Source of the DNA: Verrucomicrobiota bacterium JB024
Lineage (GTDB): Bacteria > Verrucomicrobiota > Verrucomicrobiia > Opitutales > Cerasicoccaceae
Length of the DNA stretch: 64,000 nt
Assembly (NCBI GenBank): GCA_030673825.1
Contig: JAUTCS010000106.1
Span: 1-64,000 of the forward strand
Direction: 5' to 3'
Positions 3,957-59,141 of this stretch are shown here, one piece after another; the stretch's first letter is position 1, and each line of letters opens with the position of its first letter. A program made the translations under genes and the position numbers. Under the pieces are notes generated by a model. It saw nothing but the letters and a program-made list of their open reading frames with translations. It did no database searches and had not been told where the DNA came from.

Positions 3957-4349
3957 ATGTCCATCCGCGTACACATCATCGCTCTTTTCTCCCTGCTCAT
4001 GGCCGGGAGCGCGGTGAGCTACGCCCAGGACGCCGTGGCGGTGGAGCAGGGGAGCGCACCTGTGGCGCGCCCCTATTTTGTCGAAAACTCGATTTATCCG
4101 ACAGGCCAGACGACGGTCTTCGGAGTGGCGGTCACCCCCGTGACCGACGTGGTCATCCTCAACAACGGTCTGGATCAGGGCTTTCGCCTCGGCATGGTAT
4201 GCCAGGTGAGCCGCTCCGGGCAGAGTGTGGCTGATCTCATCCTGGTCGATGTCCGCGACAACCGCGCCGCCGGCCTCATTCTCAACCTCGAATCCGGCCA
4301 GGCCATTCGCTCCGGCGACGGCGTCAACATCAAGACGATCACTCTTTAA
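3957..4349 (+). CDS. Secreted protein of unknown function inserted in the S10 operon
   Basis: Predicted protein of 130 residues that I do not recognise as a named family. Residues 1-24 form a Sec signal peptide ending SYA-QD, so the product should be periplasmic. The mature part is short and beta-rich. Its second half (NNGLDQGFRLGMVCQVSRSG, then a strand, then SGDGVNIKTI) resembles the small beta-barrel seen at the C-termini of FlgT- or MreC-like proteins; this is a pattern impression only. The gene sits 10 bases after rpsS and 11 before rplV, so it should be co-transcribed with ribosomal genes. The earlier in-frame ATG at 3876 lies inside rpsS and would bury the signal peptide, so 3957 was chosen. 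No Shine-Dalgarno sequence is obvious. Confidence 0.8.
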   Translation: MSIRVHIIALFSLLMAGSAVSYAQDAVAVEQGSAPVARPYFVENSIYPTGQTTVFGVAVTPVTDVVILNNGLDQGFRLGMVCQVSRSGQSVADLILVDVRDNRAAGLILNLESGQAIRSGDGVNIKTITL

Positions 4350-35979: not shown

Positions 35980-36588
35980 ATGCCCAACCTGATTGAAGTC
36001 ATCGGTGTGGCCCTCGTGGGCTACCTCATCGGCTCGGTGTCCTTCGCTGTGCTCATCGCGCGGCGGGCTGGCGTCGATATCCTCAAGGAGGGCAGCTGCA
36101 ACCCCGGCGCGACGAACGTCAAGCGCGTGCTGGGCAAGCGCGCCGGTAACCTGTGCTTCGGGCTGGATTTCCTCAAGGGGCTGGTGGCGGCCGGTTGGCC
36201 GCTGCTGCCTTTCGTGGGAGCCAGCGAGCCCGTCCACCTTGGCATTATCGGCCTCATCGCCGCCATCCTCGGGCACAGCTTCTCGCTCTTCCTCGGGTTC
36301 AAGGGCGGCAAGGGCGTAGCCACCACCATGGGCGGCCTGCTCGCGCTGGCGCCGCTCGTGCTGGGGCTCGGGCTGGTCACGTGGGTGGTGGTCTTCTACA
36401 CCTCCCGCTACGTCTCGCTCGCCTCGCTCGCCTTCGGCGTGAGCCTGCCGCTCTTCGGGCTGTTCTTCGTCGCGGACGCGTGGCTGATGGTGTTCCTCGT
36501 TGCCCTGGCCGTGCTCATCATCGTCCGCCACCGCTCGAACATCCAGCGCCTGCTCAACGGCACCGAAAACCGCTTCACGAAGAAGTAA
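35980..36588 (+). CDS. plsY: Glycerol-3-phosphate acyltransferase PlsY
   Basis: Inner-membrane acyltransferase that uses acyl-phosphate to make lysophosphatidic acid; 202 residues with about five hydrophobic helices. The three PlsY motifs are visible: GSCNPGATNVKRVLGKRAG, then DFLKGLVAAG, then GHSFSLFLGFKGGKGVATTMG. The final RHRSNIQRLLNGTENRF is also typical. It follows serA; the next gene is the AraC-type regulator after 79 bases. Confidence 0.97.
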   Translation: MPNLIEVIGVALVGYLIGSVSFAVLIARRAGVDILKEGSCNPGATNVKRVLGKRAGNLCFGLDFLKGLVAAGWPLLPFVGASEPVHLGIIGLIAAILGHSFSLFLGFKGGKGVATTMGGLLALAPLVLGLGLVTWVVVFYTSRYVSLASLAFGVSLPLFGLFFVADAWLMVFLVALAVLIIVRHRSNIQRLLNGTENRFTKK

Positions 36589-36667: not shown

Positions 36668-37699
36668 ATGCCCAAGCCTTCCTCCATATCGACGTTGGAG
36701 CGTTTCTGTGAGTACTGGGAAAAAATCACCGGCTTACACATCTGCATCTACGATTACGCGTATTTTTCGATCGAGAGTGACTGGCTGGAGTTGCCCTATG
36801 TCCGCTGCACGCACTGCTCCGAGTACTGCATGCTGGTGAAGTCGAACGAGGAGGCCTTCCACGAGTGCATCAAGACCGAGTCCCAGCGGACGGCGTTGGC
36901 GGCGAAGTCAAAAAAGCCGCTGTTGCACCGTTGCCATGCGGGAGTGCTGGACCTGGTCGTTCCCATCATCGTGGGATCACAAACGGCGGGTGCGGTCTTT
37001 ATCGGGCAATGCGCCCCGTCCGACAAACGCGAGCGCAACAAGTACATCAAGTCCATTGCGAAAAAGTACACGCTGGATACCGCTCAGCTCGAAAAGGCGA
37101 TGGAAGGCCTGATGGATACGGAAAAGGCGGGCCTGATGGAGTCCAAGGATGTCGCCTATTTCGTGGCCGAATACATCCGCCGCATCATGGGCTCGGCGAT
37201 TCACATGAGTATCGTCGATGCGGCGGTGGTCTTTAATGCCGCCGGAGAAGTCGATGTGGCGCGCATTCCGAACTATTTTCTCGACCAGATCGCGGCGAGC
37301 TCCCGCAAGATCAAGCATGCTCTCGAACGCATCCGCAACGGCTACTGGACAGACATTCCCCAGGCGACCCTGGCCAAGGAAGCCGGGCTGTCCGAGTCGC
37401 ATTTCAGCCGTCTTTTCAAGAAGCAGACCGGGATGACCTACCGCCGGTGTCTGGTGGAGGCGCGCCTGAGCGCGGCTGTCTGGTTAATGAAAAAAACGGA
37501 CCTGAACAACAAGCAGATCGCCGAACTGCTCAACTACGGGGAGGCCTCATCCCTGCACCGGGCGATCCGCATTCACACCGGTACGACCCCGACCGACCTG
37601 AGACGGCGACAGCCCATGCCTTGGTATATGAGCAAGCAGAATTGGCTGCCAGAGTTGGGGGAACCGGGGCCTGACGACGGTCACGGACACGAGCTCTAG
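36668..37699 (+). CDS. AraC-family regulator with PocR sensor domain
   Basis: Transcription regulator of 343 residues. The N-terminal PocR domain (about 10-180) shows its cysteine set, CTHCSEYC (Cys47, 50, 54), Cys67 and the HRCHAGVLDLVVPI block with Cys89. PocR domains bind small organic ligands. The C-terminal AraC/XylS DNA-binding domain (about 220-320) has ATLAKEAGLSESHFSRLFKK and NKQIAELLNYGEASSLHRAI as its two helix-turn-helix units. It precedes a secreted glycan-active cassette on the same strand and probably controls it, likely through direct repeats at 37767-37783. Confidence 0.92.
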   Translation: MPKPSSISTLERFCEYWEKITGLHICIYDYAYFSIESDWLELPYVRCTHCSEYCMLVKSNEEAFHECIKTESQRTALAAKSKKPLLHRCHAGVLDLVVPIIVGSQTAGAVFIGQCAPSDKRERNKYIKSIAKKYTLDTAQLEKAMEGLMDTEKAGLMESKDVAYFVAEYIRRIMGSAIHMSIVDAAVVFNAAGEVDVARIPNYFLDQIAASSRKIKHALERIRNGYWTDIPQATLAKEAGLSESHFSRLFKKQTGMTYRRCLVEARLSAAVWLMKKTDLNNKQIAELLNYGEASSLHRAIRIHTGTTPTDLRRRQPMPWYMSKQNWLPELGEPGPDDGHGHEL

Positions 37700-37766
37700 G
37701 CCTCTGGCCACTAAACAGGTGTAGTGGATGTTCGCTGGGCAGGGTGAGCATGTAATGATAAACTAT

Positions 37767-37783
37767 TGGCATTAAGTGGCATT
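37767..37783 (+). promoter_or_regulatory. Direct repeat TGGCATT, 10-bp spacing; possible operator
   Basis: TGGCATT occurs at 37767-37773 and again at 37777-37783, one helical turn apart. About 10 bases later a weak promoter-like pair follows: TTGCGG (37785-37790) and TAATGC (37807-37812), 16 bases apart. In the 156-base gap between the AraC regulator and its putative target, this is a reasonable operator. It has not been tested. Confidence 0.4.
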
Positions 37784-37855
37784 GTTGCGGAGGGGTTTTT
37801 CTGCAATAATGCTTGCGTATTCATTCTCCCAACAACCCTGACGAATTCACCCATT

Positions 37856-38755
37856 ATGAAATCTGTATTCAGTACCCTGACCCATTCCCGTGCTCTTTGC
37901 TCTTCCCTTTTTCTGCTGGGCGGTGCGCTCGCAGCGAACGGCATCACCGTTTACAGTGAAGACTTCACCGGGCAGACTTCCCTGAGCAGCGATTTTACGG
38001 TTACTACCCAGCCCGGGGTCACCTATGGCGTCTCGACCACCGAAGGAAATCCGGCCCCCAGCATGAGCCTGGTGGATACGGGGTCGTCGTACGGTTCGGC
38101 CTATGTGCAGGGCTCGCACTGGAACTCCTTTGGCACGGGCAACCCGGGCGAGCACATTTTCCAGGTCAGTTGGGATTGGCGGGTTGACGCCTCGACCAGT
38201 GCGATCGGGTCCAACTCCACCATGCGCTTCAACCTGTCCCTGAGCGCGACGGGTGCGACGGGGAGCAAGATCTCGGTCGGTTTCGGCCACGCCACGATCA
38301 ACGGCACGGACACCAATTTCTTTTACGCCGGCGGTGCCAGCGCGGCCCCGTTCCCGAGCTCGGCCAATGCGATCGGGTTCAACGGCACCACGCTCGATGA
38401 CGGGTTTAATTTCGGGGCCTACAGTACCACCGGCTCGGAGAACAATACGGACGGCAACTACTATCGTTTTACCCTGACCTATGCCGACAACGCCACGACG
38501 GCGGAGCTGACCGTGTACAACACCGCGGACGAGAGCCAGTCGGCCACGGTGACGATCACCGGCCTGACCCCGACCAGCGTGTACAACACCAATGGCCGCA
38601 GCTTCGAGGTCGTGGCCGGTGGCGCCGGGACCGGCACATCCTACTTCGATAATATCGAACTGGCCGCCATTCCCGAGATATCATCCACTTCGGCCATGTT
38701 CGCGATGGCTTCGCTGCTGACCTGCTGGCTTTTCAAGCGCCGCCGGTCCCGCTAA
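37856..38755 (+). CDS. PEP-CTERM-like secreted beta-sandwich protein
   Basis: Surface protein of 299 residues. A signal peptide (1-27) precedes a Ser/Thr/Gly-rich chain of beta strands that begins YSEDFTGQTSLSS and ends TGTSYFDNIEL, the open-and-close pattern of LamG/concanavalin-like jelly rolls. The C-terminus has an atypical PEP-CTERM tail: IPEISS, a hydrophobic helix (MFAMASLLTCWLF) and KRRRSR, so it may be handled by an exosortase. The frame is open 30 codons upstream, but the ATG at 37856 starts the signal peptide. It probably binds or presents glycans; this is inference. Confidence 0.82.
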   Translation: MKSVFSTLTHSRALCSSLFLLGGALAANGITVYSEDFTGQTSLSSDFTVTTQPGVTYGVSTTEGNPAPSMSLVDTGSSYGSAYVQGSHWNSFGTGNPGEHIFQVSWDWRVDASTSAIGSNSTMRFNLSLSATGATGSKISVGFGHATINGTDTNFFYAGGASAAPFPSSANAIGFNGTTLDDGFNFGAYSTTGSENNTDGNYYRFTLTYADNATTAELTVYNTADESQSATVTITGLTPTSVYNTNGRSFEVVAGGAGTGTSYFDNIELAAIPEISSTSAMFAMASLLTCWLFKRRRSR

Positions 38756-38821
38756 GCTCCGCTTCCCGATCTTTCCCCATATTCCGCCTTGGGTCTTCCC
38801 GAGGACACGCACCGATTAGCT

Positions 38822-39442
38822 ATGAAAAACAAGCTAAGATACCCCGCTTTTACCCTGATTGAGCTGTTGGCCGTGATTGCTGTGATTGCCGTGCTGACCA
38901 TGATCGCCATCCCGGCTATCAGCTCGGGAATCCAGCGGGCGCGTACCACCGATTGCCTGAGTAACCTGAGGCAGTTGCAGACGAGCGTTCTTCAATACGT
39001 CAACGACAACAACGGCTTCCTGCCGGACAAGCCTAACGCCGAGTGGCTCGGCGAGCTGTGGCCGTATCTCTACGAGACCGACTACGTGCCCATCTATGGC
39101 AACAGTCTCCCGCTCGTCGGAACGGTTTTCTGCTGCCCGGAGGCTGACGGCTCGGATAACCCCGCACCGAAGCGCAGCTACGGAATGAACGCGCACCTGA
39201 TCGACAACAACGCCTTTACGCTGACGCACATGAGCCAGATCATCTATCCGGCAGATACCGCCAGCATCGCGGACAATGCGCTGGGGAGCATGCTCTCCGC
39301 CAGCCAGATGGCAGCCCGGCACAGCGGCCTCTGTAATGTGGCGTTTCTTGACGGGCACGTGGAGTCCATCGAGCCGACCGACGACATCGCCAAAGATTAT
39401 GCCTATCGTAGCGTATTCTGGAGAGGCGTCATTATTCACTGA
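38822..39442 (+). CDS. Prepilin-like H-X9-DG protein (orphan pseudopilin)
   Basis: Secreted protein of 206 residues with a type IV prepilin N-terminus: KLRYPA followed by FTLIELLAVIAVIAVL, Glu at +5 of the mature chain and cleavage expected after Ala9 (Ala instead of Gly). The C-terminus carries the prepilin-associated H-X9-DG motif: His167, nine residues, Asp177-Gly178 in FLDGHVE. Four Cys (45, 104, 105, 171) may form disulfides. No pilus or type II secretion genes are nearby. It is sandwiched between a PEP-CTERM protein and a glycosidase, so it may belong to a surface glycan system rather than a pilus. Confidence 0.9.
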   Translation: MKNKLRYPAFTLIELLAVIAVIAVLTMIAIPAISSGIQRARTTDCLSNLRQLQTSVLQYVNDNNGFLPDKPNAEWLGELWPYLYETDYVPIYGNSLPLVGTVFCCPEADGSDNPAPKRSYGMNAHLIDNNAFTLTHMSQIIYPADTASIADNALGSMLSASQMAARHSGLCNVAFLDGHVESIEPTDDIAKDYAYRSVFWRGVIIH

Positions 39443-39459
39443 CCAATTGTTTTTTAACC

Positions 39460-42400
39460 ATGTTTGATCGTTACTGTGTGGTCGCATCCTTGATGGGTGC
39501 GTTGGTGAGCTGTGTTTGCTTCGCCGAATCGTCTATCCTTGTTTCTCCGTCGATGGAGGACGCCAAGCTGCCGGATACCGTGCAGGTGGCGGACGAACAG
39601 GTCTTCCTGACCGGGTCGGCTTACGAGGTGAACTTTCCTGACGCAGCCGGCCAGATGTTCTGCCCCGCCGACATTGCGCTGCCGGAGGGAACACAGTTCG
39701 CGGGCTGCTGGATACGGGGGAAAGACGTACGGGCCAAGCTGGACTTTGTCTTCGCGGACGCGCAGGGGAGGGAGACGGTCGTCTCCACCAGCGGGCCGAT
39801 CGACAACTCCTGGGACTTCCGGGGCGTGACGCCGCCGCCGGGGGCGAGCACTCTGCTCGGGGTGCGTGTCGTGCATGGCAAGGGCGTTTCCGGTACCCTG
39901 TGGGTCAGTAACTGGATGGCCGATGAGAGCTCGCCCAGCGCGCACCGCGACTTTATCTGGCAGCTCAAATCGCTCGAATTTTCCAAGCGCTTCACCTACT
40001 ACCGCACGGGGCGGCAGTTCCTGTGGTCCGGTTTCGATGAAGACACTTTTCTGCCCGTCGGGTGCGTCCTGAGCGATCCGGAGCAATGGTTTTACCTGCC
40101 GGAGGAGACGCCATACCTCGCTTATGGCCTGAGCACGAATCCGGCGCCTGCCGACGGGAGCAACCTGGCGATTGTCGTCCAGAGCGCCTTGAACACGGGC
40201 CAGATCATTGATACTCAGACCTGTGAGATCACCGATTACGATCCGCAGACGGATAACCTGGACCGGATACCTTTACACCTGAGCGAGCCGGGTTCGTATC
40301 AGATCACAGCCTCGGTCTATGAAGACGGTGTCTATATCGGCTCGCGTCAGTTTGTGCTGACCGTTTCGCGGAACACCCAGCCGGAGAGCTATCCCCATGA
40401 GACCAACGGGCAGGCGGGACAGCTGGTGTGCACGCCCTTGCTCAGCGGCGGGCATCCGGTGTTCGAGGCGGGTGAGCCGGTCGCTCTGGACTGGCAGGGG
40501 CAGGTGCCCGCCGGGGGACCCGTTCAGTTGCGTTACGAGGTCTTTGACTACACCTATCACGCCTGCGGCACGGGCGAAGTCGAGGCCGAGGCCGACTCCG
40601 ATGGCCAGTGGCACGAATCGCTGACGCTGCCCGAGCTCGCCCCCGGCGCGTATTACCTGCGGCTGAAAGTCGTGCAGGACGGTCAATGCTACGGAGAAGC
40701 CTGGCAGATATTGGGTGTGCGTGCGGACCCCGAGGAGGCTCCGACCGGACCGGTCCGCGCCCCCGCGAGTTACGACGAGCTTTTCGGCCCCGAGGGCGGC
40801 CTGGCCATGCAGATGGATGTCTATCCGCTGGACAAGCATGTCGGCCAGTCGGTGGCGTACTGCATCGAGCGCAACGAGCGTGCGGATTCCACGCCCATCG
40901 TCTGCTTTTACTGGGGCGACCTGGAACCGCTGCCCGGCGTCTATCAATTCTCGCTCATCGATCAGTGGCTGGAGAAGTTCTCCGAGGCGGGCCTCCGGGT
41001 TTTTCTCTCCCCGATGATTATCGCTGACGTTCTGCCGGAGTGGATTTGGTACGACATCTGCCTGAATCAGCGCGGGACGGGGCGCTTTTCGCCCATGCTG
41101 GGGCACACCTATGTGTCGCCGTCGAGCCGACTCTACCGCGACAACCAGCTTAACTTCATCCGGGCCTTTGTTCGGCATTTCCGGGACAACCCCACCGTGC
41201 TCGGCTATTACTTTCCGCACAACGGGGCCGAAGGTTTTTATCCCTTTTTCTCAGACCCGGAATTGGTGCCCGATTATTCCGAGCCTGCCCGCAAGGCCTT
41301 TCAGGCGTACCTGCGCGATGAGCGGGCCTACACGCTGGCAGACATCAACGAGCGCTACGGGCTGAGCCTCGAAACCTGGGAGCAGCTCGAATGTCCTCTG
41401 CCGGATTTTGACGCGCCGCTGGACACGCGTCCCCAATGGCAGGACTTCATGGACTTCCAGCAGCACGTGGTCGATCACTGGGTCACGCGGGTCATCGAGA
41501 CCGCGCGGGAAGAAGACCCGGAGCGCCCCTTGCTCCAATACGGCTTATGGGGGTTTGGTGCGATCGAGAGCTTTCTGGATGTCTTTCATGAGAACCACGT
41601 CGTGTTGGGTAACGGTGGCTCGGACACCGCGGTGGCGACCTACCTGATGGGCCTGGCCAAGAACAACGATATCGTGGCCATCAGCGAATCGACGCACACG
41701 CCTCCCTTTGAGGCGGCTCTGAACCTGTCGGCTTTCAATAACCTGGGCACCGGGAACTTCCGTGCCAACGACCTGTGCTGGAATCACCTGGCGCACCGCT
41801 TTCAGGGCGATGCGGCCATCGATCCGCTACTCGACTATTACACCGCCTGGCAGCGCGAGCTGATCCCTCACCTGCGCAATGCACAGGTGGTGGGAAAAAC
41901 GGGCGCCGTCCTCGTCTCGCCTCGCAGTCTGATTCTTCGGACGCGCTACTTCTCGTCGCTGGCCTGGCTGCAGGATGCGGACTTTTCCGCGCTCATGTAT
42001 GGTACGCTGGAGGCGCGATGGATGCCTTCGTGGATCAGTGAAAACACGCCGCAGTGGGAGCGATTCTCGATGGTCTGGGATACCGGGATCGTCCAGCTCG
42101 ACACTGCCGCTCGGCAAAAAATGCGCGACTATGTGGCCGGGGGCGGGACGCTCATTACCAGTTTGAAAACGGACTCGCTGCCCGGTGACGGGCAGTCTCG
42201 GGCCAATGCCTTTTTCGAGGGGCTGGGGTTGCGTTTCGCGCAGGACAAACCCTTGTACGGACTCACCGCTCCACTCTTGGTGGACTCACCCCTCGGAGCC
42301 AAGGGGCAGAGCCTGCAACTCTCCCAGTGCCGCCCGCTTGCGGAGGTGCCGGACGGTGCGCAGGTGCTGGCCAGGGACTTGATGGGGCGGCCAGTCATTA

Positions 42401-42852
42401 TCCGCCTGCCGGACGGTAAGGGGGCTTTCCTCATCGTTTCCGGCCAGATCGACATGCGCGCCAACCCGCGACTGTACGCCTCCATGCAGCATGCCCTCAA
42501 TGGCGACAGCGAGGTGAACGTTTCTGACCGCGATGTCTGGAGTGCGCACCTGCGGGACGGCTCCAGCGACTATATCGCGCTGATCAACCGCCCCTCCTCT
42601 CTGCAACCGTACATGAACCCCAAGCAGGGCAAGGTGCCCGGCGGCATCAGCAAGGGGACCTGGAGCTTTGCCGGGGCCGATGACCACATGTTCTATACCG
42701 TGACGAACCTGCTGGACGTGGTCGACAGCCACAAGGTTCGCGGGCAGGCGCTCAAGGCCGGGATACCCTTCGAACTGCCATCGGGCGCGCTCGCTGTCTA
42801 TAGGATCAGCCCCGCCGCGCCTGAAGCGGCCAGCCTGCCCATCTCCAATTAA
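39460..42852 (+). CDS. GH42-like glycoside hydrolase (putative beta-galactosidase)
   Basis: Large secreted enzyme of 1130 residues with a signal peptide (1-22, SCVCFAES). Residues 25-430 are beta-sandwich modules. The TIM barrel starts near 450 and reads like family GH42: CFYWGDLEPLPGVYQF, the HNGAEG segment near residue 586 (likely acid/base Glu), a WQDFMDFQQHVVDHWV helix, and AISEST near 740 (possible nucleophile). A domain like the GH42 trimerisation domain follows (MRDYVAGGGTLIT, about residue 888). The usual Asn-Glu pair is not exact, so another clan GH-A family is possible. It lies 17 bases after the prepilin-like gene. Confidence 0.8.
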   Translation: MFDRYCVVASLMGALVSCVCFAESSILVSPSMEDAKLPDTVQVADEQVFLTGSAYEVNFPDAAGQMFCPADIALPEGTQFAGCWIRGKDVRAKLDFVFADAQGRETVVSTSGPIDNSWDFRGVTPPPGASTLLGVRVVHGKGVSGTLWVSNWMADESSPSAHRDFIWQLKSLEFSKRFTYYRTGRQFLWSGFDEDTFLPVGCVLSDPEQWFYLPEETPYLAYGLSTNPAPADGSNLAIVVQSALNTGQIIDTQTCEITDYDPQTDNLDRIPLHLSEPGSYQITASVYEDGVYIGSRQFVLTVSRNTQPESYPHETNGQAGQLVCTPLLSGGHPVFEAGEPVALDWQGQVPAGGPVQLRYEVFDYTYHACGTGEVEAEADSDGQWHESLTLPELAPGAYYLRLKVVQDGQCYGEAWQILGVRADPEEAPTGPVRAPASYDELFGPEGGLAMQMDVYPLDKHVGQSVAYCIERNERADSTPIVCFYWGDLEPLPGVYQFSLIDQWLEKFSEAGLRVFLSPMIIADVLPEWIWYDICLNQRGTGRFSPMLGHTYVSPSSRLYRDNQLNFIRAFVRHFRDNPTVLGYYFPHNGAEGFYPFFSDPELVPDYSEPARKAFQAYLRDERAYTLADINERYGLSLETWEQLECPLPDFDAPLDTRPQWQDFMDFQQHVVDHWVTRVIETAREEDPERPLLQYGLWGFGAIESFLDVFHENHVVLGNGGSDTAVATYLMGLAKNNDIVAISESTHTPPFEAALNLSAFNNLGTGNFRANDLCWNHLAHRFQGDAAIDPLLDYYTAWQRELIPHLRNAQVVGKTGAVLVSPRSLILRTRYFSSLAWLQDADFSALMYGTLEARWMPSWISENTPQWERFSMVWDTGIVQLDTAARQKMRDYVAGGGTLITSLKTDSLPGDGQSRANAFFEGLGLRFAQDKPLYGLTAPLLVDSPLGAKGQSLQLSQCRPLAEVPDGAQVLARDLMGRPVIIRLPDGKGAFLIVSGQIDMRANPRLYASMQHALNGDSEVNVSDRDVWSAHLRDGSSDYIALINRPSSLQPYMNPKQGKVPGGISKGTWSFAGADDHMFYTVTNLLDVVDSHKVRGQALKAGIPFELPSGALAVYRISPAAPEAASLPISN

Positions 42853-42862
42853 TACCTTCACC

Positions 42863-43495
42863 ATGAAAATCCACACCTTAGCCTCCCTGTTTATTCTTGG
42901 CCTGTACGCGAATGCCTCGGCGGACACCGTGCTGTTTGCCGACGACTTTTCGTCGGGTGAACTGCGTGCCTCTCATTGGCCAATGCAGCGGGCGACCGAG
43001 GGCGCCATCGCCGTGATGGATAGTCCCGAAGGTGGTGAGGTTTTGGTGTTTTCCCCGCCCGAGCAGGGGAAGAGTGCAGTTGTCTGCACGACTACTTTCA
43101 AGGCCAACCCCGAGCGCATAAAAATAAGCTGGGAGGAGAATATCTCCGGTACCGCGCAGGCGGGCATCTTTGTGGCGCTGCTGGATGGCAGCCGGTATCC
43201 GCTCATGCTGAGCCAGACGCGGTTCGGTGACTACCGCCGCAAGACACCCGAGGGTGGGGCACTGGCCAAGGTCGCTGATTTGCAACCCGGCTGGCGCTCG
43301 TGCGCGCTCATCATCGACCGGACGAAGGGCGCGGTCGAGTTCTTCTACGACGATACGGAAAACGCGTCGGCACTTTTTGAGATCATCGGCACTATCGACA
43401 GCTTCGATGATGTCCGTCTCGTCTTCGGCGTTGATAGCTCGGCTTCCCAGCAGGTCCGCCTGCGCGACGTCAAGGTCGAGGCGCTGGACTCCTGA
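42863..43495 (+). CDS. Small secreted LamG-like protein
   Basis: Predicted protein of 210 residues with a signal peptide (1-20, NASAD). It opens with FADDFSSGEL and closes with VRLVFGVDSSASQQVRLRDVKVEAL, the same jelly-roll signature as the PEP-CTERM protein of this cluster. The middle holds GIFVALLDGSRYPLML and WRSCALIIDRTKGAVEFFYDD, typical of laminin-G/concanavalin-like carbohydrate-binding folds. There is no catalytic motif I can point to. It starts 10 bases after the glycosidase, so co-translation is likely. The exact family is not recognised. Confidence 0.75.
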   Translation: MKIHTLASLFILGLYANASADTVLFADDFSSGELRASHWPMQRATEGAIAVMDSPEGGEVLVFSPPEQGKSAVVCTTTFKANPERIKISWEENISGTAQAGIFVALLDGSRYPLMLSQTRFGDYRRKTPEGGALAKVADLQPGWRSCALIIDRTKGAVEFFYDDTENASALFEIIGTIDSFDDVRLVFGVDSSASQQVRLRDVKVEALDS

Positions 43496-43620
43496 CGACC
43501 CCGGCCAGTCTCGCACATTCCTGAAGCTCAGGTGGAGCATGGCGCTTCACCTCTGGTTGGCCCTGCCCCTTTCCCTCAATACGAGGTGCCCGTGCGCCTC
43601 ATAACCCAGGAATGCGAATA

Positions 43621-45684
43621 ATGAAAAAATACCCCATAGCCCTATGCTTCATTTGCGCCTGCGCGGCCTCGTTCGCAGGCACCGTACATGTTTCCAGTTT
43701 CAACGCCTATCCCGATGACGGGATCGACGACACGGCAGCGATCAATGCCGCGATCACCTCGGGCCATTACAACACGGTGGTTTTTGACGCCGGTGTCTAT
43801 GACCTGATCACACCGACGGATGCCGGAGCCTTTATCCAGATTTATAACCGGACGGGCATTACGCTGCAAGGGGCCACGACCGCAATGGGAAAGCCCGCCA
43901 CGGTCCTGCTGCGGCACGTCAACGTCGAAGCCATGGCCAGCCCGCCGCGCACGCTGCATGTGTACGATGGCGCGGATATCGCCCTGCAAAATCTCGCCAT
44001 CGATAATACGCCGCAGCTGTGCAGCGCCGGTGAGATCATCGACAAAACGGATGACGGTAACGGCACACAGGGCATCAAGGTTGCGGTCTTACCGGGGCTG
44101 CCCATGGACGCGGGGATGCCCTGCTACGCAGCCAATGCGTGGGACCCGGTTTCGCTGGACCTCAAGGAAGGGATACAGAGCCTGACCTTTACCGTTTCGC
44201 CGGGAGACTGGAGCATCGCGGATTCTGTCAACCGGGTGATGGAACTGAGCAGCACCTCCGGGCTCGATTTTTATGACGATATCGAGGTCGGCGATTACAT
44301 GTCCTGGCATTACGGATGGGACGGGCTGCCGCAAATGTTCCTTTATGGGACGGACGGCCTGACCCTCGATAACCTTGAGGTGCGTAATGTCGTGAATGTC
44401 GGCATCCTGATCGGTGCCGCGGCGGACATTACGCTGACCGACATTGTTTTCCGCCCTGACGGGAACCAGCTCGCTGTCGGCCCGCGGGACGGCATCTACA
44501 TCTCGCGCAGCACGGGGGCCATTGCCGCCTCCGGCCTGGACATCACGGGGGTACGTTGGGATGGCTTCGTCGTGAGATCCGCCTATGCAGAGGTAACGGC
44601 TGTGAACGCGCCTGCCAGCCTGACCCTGGCGGTGGAAATCAACACCTCAGGCCAGCCGATCACATCCGGCAGCAGCATCTATTTTCTGGCGACTGATGGC
44701 AGCCTGACCGAGCGGACTGTCGGCTCAGCGGCTTTTGTCCAGACGCTGAACGGCAAAAGCACTTACGAGGTCACGCTGACGGACGACCTGCCGACCTTTG
44801 CCAACGTTGGGATTCACCTGAAGCTGGGCGCCTTGATGCCGGATTTCGTGAGTGTCGTGGACAGTAACTTCGAGAACATCGCGGGGGCGTCAGTCATCCT
44901 GCGGGCGGACAACATTACCGTGCAGAATACCACGCACCGGAAGGTCATGTACGAGGCGATGCACATCGGAACGCACCCACTCGAAGGTGTGGACGGCTCC
45001 AACATCAAGGTCCTTAATTCCACCTTTGACACCTGTGGCTGGTATCAAAAGGTGGGGCACCTGCCGGGTATCATCACGATCTTTAACAACCACGCGCAGG
45101 TCACGGAAGGCAAGATCCACGGAGTCGAGATCAAATACAATCTGTTCCGGAATCAACTGTGCGGTGCGGCCATGCCCAGCCTGAATATCGCGGATGCGGA
45201 GGGACTGACCATCCACGGAAACGTCTTCGAAAACGTCACCAAGGGCATGCAGTTCGACCTGTCGTCCGCGGGTAACTTCGGGGTGGGGGCGAGCACGATC
45301 ATCATCGATAACAGCGATAATGACGTCACCTATCGGGAAGTGTCCGGCACCTTCGCCAACAGTGGGCTGACCGGCTATAATGGCTCAAGCACGCGCTATG
45401 CCTGGTGGACGGGTGCAAAGGCAGAGTGGACCTTTATTGCCCCGAAGTCGTCGCAATACGAGGTGTACGTTTATGCGGTCGAGCATCCAACCTCCAGTGA
45501 CAGCGTGGTGATCACGGTGGGCAATGACGCAACGGCGGTCCAGCACACGCTCGACTTTACGAGTGATGGAGGCTGGCGTTACCTGGGTACATATTCGTAC
45601 ACGGGACAGGTGGCCTACACGGTCAGTGCGGAAGCCCAAAACGCCCACTTGCGTACGGATGCCGTCATGTTTGTCCAACGGTAA
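43621..45684 (+). CDS. Secreted right-handed beta-helix protein with golvesin-like C-terminal domain
   Basis: Secreted protein of 687 residues with a signal peptide (1-19). NAYPDDGIDDTAAINAAI is the usual start of the pectate-lyase-like beta helix; repeated coil strings (ITLQGATT, IALQNLAIDN, LTLDNLEVRNV, ITVQNTTHRK, IKVLNSTFDT) continue to about residue 565. The order of motifs, with an inserted beta domain after the DGIYISRSTGAI segment, recalls GH110 alpha-galactosidases, but I cannot confirm catalytic Asp residues. The last 100 residues (AWWTGAKAEWTFIAPKSSQY onward) look like a golvesin-type domain. ATG 43621 was preferred over 43612 because AGGAA lies at a proper distance. Confidence 0.82.
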   Translation: MKKYPIALCFICACAASFAGTVHVSSFNAYPDDGIDDTAAINAAITSGHYNTVVFDAGVYDLITPTDAGAFIQIYNRTGITLQGATTAMGKPATVLLRHVNVEAMASPPRTLHVYDGADIALQNLAIDNTPQLCSAGEIIDKTDDGNGTQGIKVAVLPGLPMDAGMPCYAANAWDPVSLDLKEGIQSLTFTVSPGDWSIADSVNRVMELSSTSGLDFYDDIEVGDYMSWHYGWDGLPQMFLYGTDGLTLDNLEVRNVVNVGILIGAAADITLTDIVFRPDGNQLAVGPRDGIYISRSTGAIAASGLDITGVRWDGFVVRSAYAEVTAVNAPASLTLAVEINTSGQPITSGSSIYFLATDGSLTERTVGSAAFVQTLNGKSTYEVTLTDDLPTFANVGIHLKLGALMPDFVSVVDSNFENIAGASVILRADNITVQNTTHRKVMYEAMHIGTHPLEGVDGSNIKVLNSTFDTCGWYQKVGHLPGIITIFNNHAQVTEGKIHGVEIKYNLFRNQLCGAAMPSLNIADAEGLTIHGNVFENVTKGMQFDLSSAGNFGVGASTIIIDNSDNDVTYREVSGTFANSGLTGYNGSSTRYAWWTGAKAEWTFIAPKSSQYEVYVYAVEHPTSSDSVVITVGNDATAVQHTLDFTSDGGWRYLGTYSYTGQVAYTVSAEAQNAHLRTDAVMFVQR

Positions 45685-45713: not shown

Positions 45714-45753
45714 AAAATGCCTGCGAGCGGTATCTACGCTCGCAGGCATTTTT
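45714..45753. terminator. Strong bidirectional terminator between the glycan cassette and lpdA
   Basis: A 16-bp stem (AAAATGCCTGCGAGCG with CGCTCGCAGGCATTTT) with a 7-base loop and flanking A/T runs lies between two convergent genes and can end transcription from both sides. Confidence 0.93.
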
Positions 45754-45784
45754 GTTATCGGTTGAGCGCGAAGGCGCTGTTCCG

Positions 45785-47179
<1,395 letters not shown>

Positions 47180-58196: not shown

Positions 58197-59141
58197 ATGA
58201 ACGCACTATGCCGTCTCCGCTACCTAATGGGCGCTCTCTGTGTCCTGTCCGCTGGCCAGTTAAATGGCATCAGCTATAACGTCAGCCTGAACACCGCTTA
58301 TTTTGGCTGGCTCGATCAGTACGAACTCGATACCTACAAAAGCGTCGGGTACAACGGCTGCGTGCCGACCTCATCGACCAACGCCATGACGTACCTGCAA
58401 AATGCCTACTCAGGGTATTTCGGCACGTCGCTGACGGGGACGACCTACCAGAACAGGCTGGATACGGCCGAACAGATGGTCAATGCCATGGGCACGGATG
58501 GCAGTGGCACTCAGTACAATCGCGTCCCCTACGCCCTGAGCAACTACATCATCACGGAAAAAGGGTTTACCCAGACCGTGTTCGGCGGGATGTACCTGAG
58601 CTCGGATTACTGGAGCGTTACTTATCCGAACCCGGGCTACATTACGGACTCGGCGCCGACTTCCGGATTTTTCCTCGACTCGCTCGGCTCCGGAGCGGCG
58701 ACGCTGTTCTCGATTTACTACCCGGAGACCTATGACGGGCACTATCTGCTGGCGACCTCGCTGGTCTGGGATGATGTCAACAATGACGGCATCATTCAGA
58801 AGTCCGAGGACGCCCATCTCTCTTTTGTCGATCCCCTGGACCCGGCCTACTATGATCAGGCCGGTTATCCGGATTCGGGGCCCAAACTTACCGTCGGCCA
58901 GATCTACTACGATGAGGAAAGCGCTACGCTCCTGCTCGACTACTACCAGTACGAAGGGGAACTGCCCTACGACGAGAACAACTATACGCAGTGGGACAGG
59001 CTGACCATCAACACGGTTTTCAGCATCAACGTCGTTCCCGAGCCGCAAACCTGGGCCATGCTCGCCGGGCTGGCCACGCTGGGTCTGTGTCTGGTAAGGA
59101 AAGGCTTCCGGCGTAAGTCTGCGCCCGCTCTGGCGGCGTGA
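58197..59141 (+). CDS. PEP-CTERM protein resembling a C39-type cysteine peptidase
   Basis: Surface protein of 314 residues. A signal peptide (1-24) is followed by a domain with GYNGCVPTSSTNAMTYLQ (Cys55), YDGHYLLATSLVW (His182) and FVDPLDP (Asp212), in the order of the C39/papain-like catalytic residues. Between His and Asp is a full EF-hand-type calcium loop, DVNNDGIIQKSE (193-204). The tail is a standard PEP-CTERM: VVPEPQTW, helix AMLAGLATLGLCLV, then RKGFRRK. So it may be a surface-anchored or released, calcium-bound peptidase; activity is inference. The ATG at 58197 was chosen because it starts the signal peptide. Confidence 0.82.
   Translation: MNALCRLRYLMGALCVLSAGQLNGISYNVSLNTAYFGWLDQYELDTYKSVGYNGCVPTSSTNAMTYLQNAYSGYFGTSLTGTTYQNRLDTAEQMVNAMGTDGSGTQYNRVPYALSNYIITEKGFTQTVFGGMYLSSDYWSVTYPNPGYITDSAPTSGFFLDSLGSGAATLFSIYYPETYDGHYLLATSLVWDDVNNDGIIQKSEDAHLSFVDPLDPAYYDQAGYPDSGPKLTVGQIYYDEESATLLLDYYQYEGELPYDENNYTQWDRLTINTVFSINVVPEPQTWAMLAGLATLGLCLVRKGFRRKSAPALAA

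Follow-up and report, generated by a model that had tools for sequence, protein, structure and literature searches.

The window analyzed here comprises 64,000 nucleotides from Verrucomicrobiota bacterium JB024, a member of the Cerasicoccaceae known from a draft genome (contig JAUTCS010000106.1, positions 1 to 64,000 of the forward strand; assembly GCA_030673825.1) and contains, at positions 36668-45684, a cassette of six plus-strand genes with intact reading frames. These encode, in order, a PocR-AraC regulator, a PEP-CTERM-type protein, an H-X9-DG pseudopilin, a glycoside hydrolase family 42 (GH42)-like enzyme, a small secreted protein and a beta-helix/golvesin protein. The cassette adds a new member to a known class of glycan loci, and the part that deserves follow-up is a recurrent pair, the pseudopilin and its PEP-CTERM neighbor. 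Intergenic gaps measure 156, 66, 17, 10 and 125 bp, and the gene calls agree with the six closely spaced same-strand genes and the coordinates given in a preliminary description of the DNA. The features of the cassette are as follows:

36668-37699, plus strand: PocR-domain AraC-type regulator (PF10114, 86 bits, cut-off 23.9; PF12833 (HTH_18), 72.5 bits)
37767-37783, plus strand: direct repeat of TGGCATT (two copies, period 10) upstream of the PEP-CTERM gene; a speculative candidate AraC-type operator
37856-38755, plus strand: secreted jelly-roll-like protein with a PEP-CTERM-type tail (IPE, hydrophobic stretch, basic end); no Pfam domain
38822-39442, plus strand: H-X9-DG pseudopilin with a prepilin-type signal (PF07963, TIGR02532, TIGR04294); start corrected to ATG 38822
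39460-42852, plus strand: secreted GH42-like glycosidase, clan GH-A barrel, 1130 residues (PF02449, 4e-14; 53 bits over 21)
42863-43495, plus strand: small secreted protein; jelly-roll by eye only, no Pfam and no significant PDB match
43621-45684, plus strand: secreted GH110-related right-handed beta-helix protein with a Golvesin_C-like end (orthologues and GH110 profile match); start alternatively 43612
45717-45754, plus strand: intrinsic terminator (13-bp stem, 7-nt loop, T run; minimum free energy -38.6, z -7.1)

The first gene product combines the PocR sensory domain with an AraC-type helix-turn-helix, as had been read from the DNA beforehand, and scores 83.9 bits against NF047788, the PocR equivalog for the propanediol regulator, whose cut-off is 500. 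Genome-wide there are 3 PocR matches and 57 HTH_18 matches exceeding cut-off, with the cassette regulator counted in both. The strong terminator expected at the cassette end is likewise present, and a sigma-70 promoter scan returned no site exceeding chance. The TGGCATT repeat was spotted post hoc, and a 7-mer repeat of any kind with a period of 10 or 11 turns up in 1.4% of shuffles.

The Cassette Is Present or Absent as a Unit

The block lies between plsY (35980-36588) upstream and the convergent lpd (45785-47179) downstream. In the congener G020 the order is sucA-sucB-lpd followed by plsY-serA, with 245 bp between the stops of lpd and plsY. Because these two genes are directly adjacent at this empty site, the cassette is present or absent as a unit, in agreement with the initial proposal that it had been inserted as one. 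In the other two congeners plsY is not seen near lpd, and synteny therefore cannot separate gain from loss. The G+C content at third codon positions (GC3) is 0.77 in the cassette versus 0.87-0.92 in its flanks; a foreign origin based on this difference was dropped, as other pilin loci of the same genome are equally low (0.76).

The Pseudopilin and the PEP-CTERM Protein Carry Distinct Sorting Signals

The initial assignment of a prepilin-like H-X9-DG protein is confirmed by three models, all over cut-off (PF07963, 22.5 against 21.2 bits; TIGR02532, 19.3 against 16.3; TIGR04294, 19.4 against 19), and scores for the Verru_Chthon cassette models fall far below theirs (TIGR02596, 24.2 against 70 bits; TIGR02599, 13.2 against 256.5). 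An AlphaFold model of the protein (predicted local distance difference test score, pLDDT, 86.8) features a long N-terminal helix spanning residues 12-62, and profile matches to pilins cover the N-terminal part only. A Foldseek search of the whole model against the PDB gives a pilin as its best, nonsignificant match (E 0.51), and the C-terminal domain of H-X9-DG pilins has no PDB match. Among 18 paralogues from the same genome C45, C105, Y120, N123, H167 and D177-G178-H179 are invariant, and the conservation of a Cys pair and a Tyr/Asn/His/Asp-Gly-His set at about 30% identity hints at a common disulfide together with a ligand or metal site.

The preceding gene starts at ATG 37856 rather than TTG 37766, and its product carries a signal peptide and ends in the tail AIPEISSTSAMFAMASLLTCWLFKRRRSR (38660-38755), with a PE motif, a hydrophobic stretch and a basic end. 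It had been introduced as a PEP-CTERM jelly-roll protein: the tail features bear out the first half of that name, and neither the curated PEP-CTERM models (TIGR02595, no match at E ≤ 1; PF07589, none at 0.1) nor any jelly-roll Pfam family lends it support. Homology to other PEP-CTERM proteins is not detectable. The small protein at 42863-43495 had been called LamG-like, a label for which we find no Pfam match, and two of the six proteins were thought to share DF..G/FDNIEL-type jelly-roll ends; phmmer does not link the two jelly-roll proteins, neither of which matches Pfam, and FDNIEL occurs in one of them only. A second, unrelated PEP-CTERM gene lies elsewhere in the window (58227-59141, plus strand), with no pilin adjoining it.

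The genome encodes 6 secretin and 10 T2SSE-family (type II/IV ATPase) matches, and its best EpsH-type exosortase match reaches E 2.8e-24 at 86.8 bits, below the cut-off of 105.55. Since secretins, T2SSE-type ATPases and exosortase-like proteins are all encoded, the pseudopilin and PEP-CTERM signals could both be processed in the host.

PEP-CTERM and Pseudopilin Genes Are Recurrent Neighbors

The genome holds 46 H-X9-DG matches, 24 of them over the family cut-off, and 71 PEP-CTERM matches at E ≤ 1. In a gene-caller-free tail scan on open frames, used for the relatives as a simple gene caller failed at lower GC, PEP-CTERM tails adjoin 21 of the 46 pilin loci of the genome itself (about 4 expected), 13 of 38 loci in family relatives (about 2 expected) and 19 of 80 in named genomes (about 6 expected), the last set being mostly Verrucomicrobiota with two Planctomycetota and weighted toward a single genome (Geminisphaera). 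A spacing of 1.1 kb per gene underlies the expected values; roughly half of the 46 matches lie below the family cut-off, the loci are nonindependent and a few named matches have atypical tails.

In a gene-based test with a tail filter that had no PE requirement, 20 of 40 analysable pilin genes adjoin a C-terminally tagged gene. Tagged genes make up 20 of 79 adjacent genes (25%) versus 11 of 318 (3.5%) in a control set of 20 sampled regions of the genome (Fisher p 1.6e-8; p 2e-5 in the relatives), and the PE motif is found in all 34 flagged neighbor rows (32 distinct proteins), though the filter ignored it. The adjacency is far above chance and recurrent, so the combination that the preliminary description had singled out as unfamiliar proves to be widespread in this genome and its relatives. 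The literature, as incompletely as we could cover it, yielded no description of such a pairing, which looks like a standing but undescribed association rather than a one-off.

It is conceivable, if somewhat unlikely, that the adjacency is a by-product, with two greatly expanded families that end up in shared, rapidly changing glycan loci but do not act jointly. Both families are indeed large (46 and about 70 matches), half of the pilin genes have no PEP-CTERM neighbor, and in a poorly resolved pilin tree the paired pilins do not form one clade, the adjacency being scattered at 22 changes versus 23.7 in shuffles. A mere sharing of loci, however, fits poorly with the rarity of PEP-CTERM genes at distances beyond three genes within these loci (10 of 246, 4%), with the predominance of the pilin's own strand among adjacent PEP-CTERM genes (16 of 20), and with one PEP-CTERM/pilin/secreted-protein set that appears syntenic between contig C150 and the congener G020.

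The surroundings of the pilins were compared as a Pfam tally of 108 neighbors and 108 control genes, limited to the top 25 families. LacI-type ligand domains (10 versus 3) and sulfatases (7 versus 2) are enriched, and beta-helix (4), GH39 (3), Laminin_G_3 (3), GH4 (2) and GH71 (2) do not figure in the control listing. Laminin_G_3 is a clear match in some PEP-CTERM partners, and others give weak, subthreshold matches to a legume-lectin domain and CBM96. Because the neighbors are rich in LacI-type, sulfatase, beta-helix and GH families and some partners match lectin-type domains, we read the pilin loci as glycan loci, of which the cassette is one.

The Cassette Encodes GH42-Like and GH110-Related Proteins

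The GH42-like glycosidase named at the outset is upheld by its Glyco_hydro_42 match, and PDB GH42 structures match the protein at 3e-10 over part of the barrel; an AlphaFold prediction of the protein alone is uninformative (pLDDT 37.5). In the last protein of the cassette, initially called beta-helix/golvesin, the Beta_helix domain exceeds its cut-off (27.1 over 25.9) and Golvesin_C does not (27.2 versus 31.6). Its orthologues in three family relatives, Cerasicoccus arenae, G083 and G094, are 55-57% identical, and the other family genomes hold distant beta-helix relatives or none. With a profile of these four members, GH110 structures are the sole significant PDB matches (E 1.8e-6). The Pfam domains of the GLAA-B barrel are absent from the cassette protein even at E ≤ 10 and present in a neighboring C. 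arenae gene.

In PdGH110B, Asp-344 is the general acid and Asp-321 and Asp-345 act on water (PMC7939477). In an alignment read by eye, D290 and D314 of the cassette protein align with Asp-321 and Asp-345, and Trp313 occupies the position of Asp-344. By its catalytic residues the protein would therefore be a distant relative of the GH110 alpha-galactosidases rather than a member of that family.

Related Loci Combine Similar Genes with an SSF Symporter

The closest pilin found in named genomes, 40% identical, belongs to a C. arenae locus (L203, L287, L288) with the order GH110 (opposite strand), beta-helix/golvesin orthologue (57%), pilin, PEP-CTERM, SSF symporter, small protein and beta-helix, and with more beta-helix genes and an IclR gene farther out. 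The two loci share the beta-helix protein and a PEP-CTERM gene adjoining the pilin; that of C. arenae differs in its symporter, IclR gene and true GH110 gene, with no GH42-like or PocR gene in the stretch examined. Related sets are kept in G083, G094, G054 and G071, with a sulfatase added in G094, and a Coraliomargarita locus carries PEP-CTERM, pilin, SSF and beta-helix genes in a row. This conserved IclR/SSF/multi-beta-helix locus, found across several genera (L203, L287, L288, L289, L291, L293, L294), looks like an undescribed galactan-type utilisation locus. What travels together in the relatives is the pilin, the PEP-CTERM and the beta-helix genes only; the co-occurrence of all six families, which had been put forward as a check, is not seen, as the GH42-like gene has no close relative in any other family genome. 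A related-locus search with the GH42-like protein as query found nothing; for the pilins this type of search used a 4-sequence alignment, 18 sequences being too diverse. The small secreted protein has no relative in the loci examined.

The host itself encodes a symporter 82% identical to that of C. arenae on contig C13 (L034, 2-9584), together with a paralogue of the GH42-like protein (23%), a PEP-CTERM gene and a divergent IclR gene; the contig ends within a beta-helix gene. The simplest reading is that the cassette and C13 would jointly do what one locus does in the relatives.

These loci bear directly on the suggestion that the block is transporter-free and its products surface-retained. 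None of the six genes encodes SusC/SusD, ABC or MFS components, the SusC/SusD search having covered the cassette only, and to that extent the label holds; it misleads in view of the symporter in the relatives' loci and at C13, which also removes the ground for surface retention. We consider it very unlikely that the cassette trims or remodels surface glycans for matrix remodelling or defence and retains the products: the missing transporter and the surface-tagged protein would suit such a role, but an SSF symporter is part of the orthologous loci, and the host's matching one is accompanied by a GH42-like paralogue and a PEP-CTERM gene.

As a separate observation, a 130-residue open reading frame with a signal-peptide-like start (3957-4349, plus strand) lies inside a ribosomal S10-type operon, apparently between rpsS-like and rplV-like genes, an odd site for a secreted protein.

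A Model for Inducible Glycan Digestion

The gene order, the presence or absence relative to the congener, the recurrence of the PEP-CTERM/pseudopilin pair and the conserved locus in relatives were computed directly. Building on these, we favor, at what we judge an even chance, a substrate-inducible cassette for extracellular glycan digestion that either broke away from a glycan locus with a symporter or was copied out of one. The PocR-AraC protein would sense a small breakdown product and switch on the downstream genes. The GH42-like and GH110-related enzymes, whose catalytic motifs are partly intact, would be exported and cut terminal sugars, plausibly, to judge from their families, the beta- and alpha-galactose of an algal-type galactan. 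The PEP-CTERM jelly-roll protein may be kept in the envelope via the exosortase pathway as a substrate-binding scaffold, the pseudopilin may join a type II/IV-type pseudopilus and aid export or localisation of the coexpressed proteins, and the sugars would be taken up through the SSF symporter of the sister locus C13. In lambda-carrageenan breakdown GH110 alpha-galactosidases act with a beta-galactosidase (PMC12549532), and the cassette substrate is therefore perhaps a galactan.

Several observations weigh against this account. The canonical Asn-Glu acid/base motif of GH42 is absent from the cassette enzyme, which has NGAE-G instead; Trp stands in place of the GH110 general acid; no relative of the GH42-like gene is found in the three congeners, and two further genomes of the family give matches that are weak and partial only; the small secreted protein has no explained role; and, as mentioned above, a PEP-CTERM neighbor is missing at about half of the pilin loci. 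The two departures from the catalytic motifs would also suit a decaying or pseudo-enzymatic cassette whose GH42-like and GH110-related proteins bind without cutting and serve in adhesion. We regard this as highly unlikely, as the shifted Glu recurs in three of four GH42-like sequences (the cassette enzyme and two of three relatives) with the nucleophile Glu position aligned, the four beta-helix orthologues all keep D290, W313 and D314, and all frames are intact.

Beyond inducible digestion by a single cassette, each PEP-CTERM surface protein might have a dedicated, swap-in pseudopilin of its own. Such pseudopilins would serve a common type II machine as cargo-specific adaptors and, at one locus after another in Verrucomicrobiota and Planctomycetota, would pass exosortase-anchored glycan-binding proteins and their enzymes on to the cell surface, a wider scheme that we consider unlikely.

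Comparison with Known Systems

The nearest described parallel is the alginate-induced operon pgaptmp_000046-60 of Verruconatronum alginivorum, in which gene 000050 encodes a pulG-like pseudopilin that has 67 homologues genome-wide. Proteomics with a single replicate per treatment shows another, separate pseudopilin to be overexpressed on alginate as well, and the authors suggest type II export of alginate lyases (PMC13274419). Both are Verrucomicrobiota glycan loci with secreted enzymes and a pulG-like pseudopilin, and the analogy would support coregulation of the cassette; unlike the cassette, the substrate-induced operon carries alginate lyases in place of GH42/GH110-like enzymes and an SSF symporter of its own, and no PEP-CTERM partner appears in the main text (PMC13274419). 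The Pseudoalteromonas polysaccharide utilization locus (PUL) for lambda-carrageenan likewise joins GH110 alpha-galactosidases to a beta-galactosidase but includes GH150, GH2 and several sulfatases, whereas no sulfatase is encoded in our window and the general acid is missing from its GH110 relative (PMC12549532). PEP-CTERM/exosortase sorting, first noticed in Verrucomicrobium, shares the tripartite C-terminal signal and the many diverse secreted proteins per genome; as described, it is tied to exopolysaccharide genes, with no pseudopilin pairing (PMC1569441). SusCD-type PULs resemble the cassette in uniting a regulator, surface glycan proteins and enzymes, and the cassette falls outside that class, its six genes having no SusC/SusD pair.

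Planctomycete- and Verrucomicrobia-type bacteria break down complex polymers of algae with no SusCD loci of the classic kind, and we know of no account of why pseudopilin and PEP-CTERM genes number in the dozens in their genomes. That these two are paired in glycan loci, with solid statistical backing, provides a testable handle on both families, and we suggest that a search for the pair may offer a route to substrate-specific loci in these bacteria.

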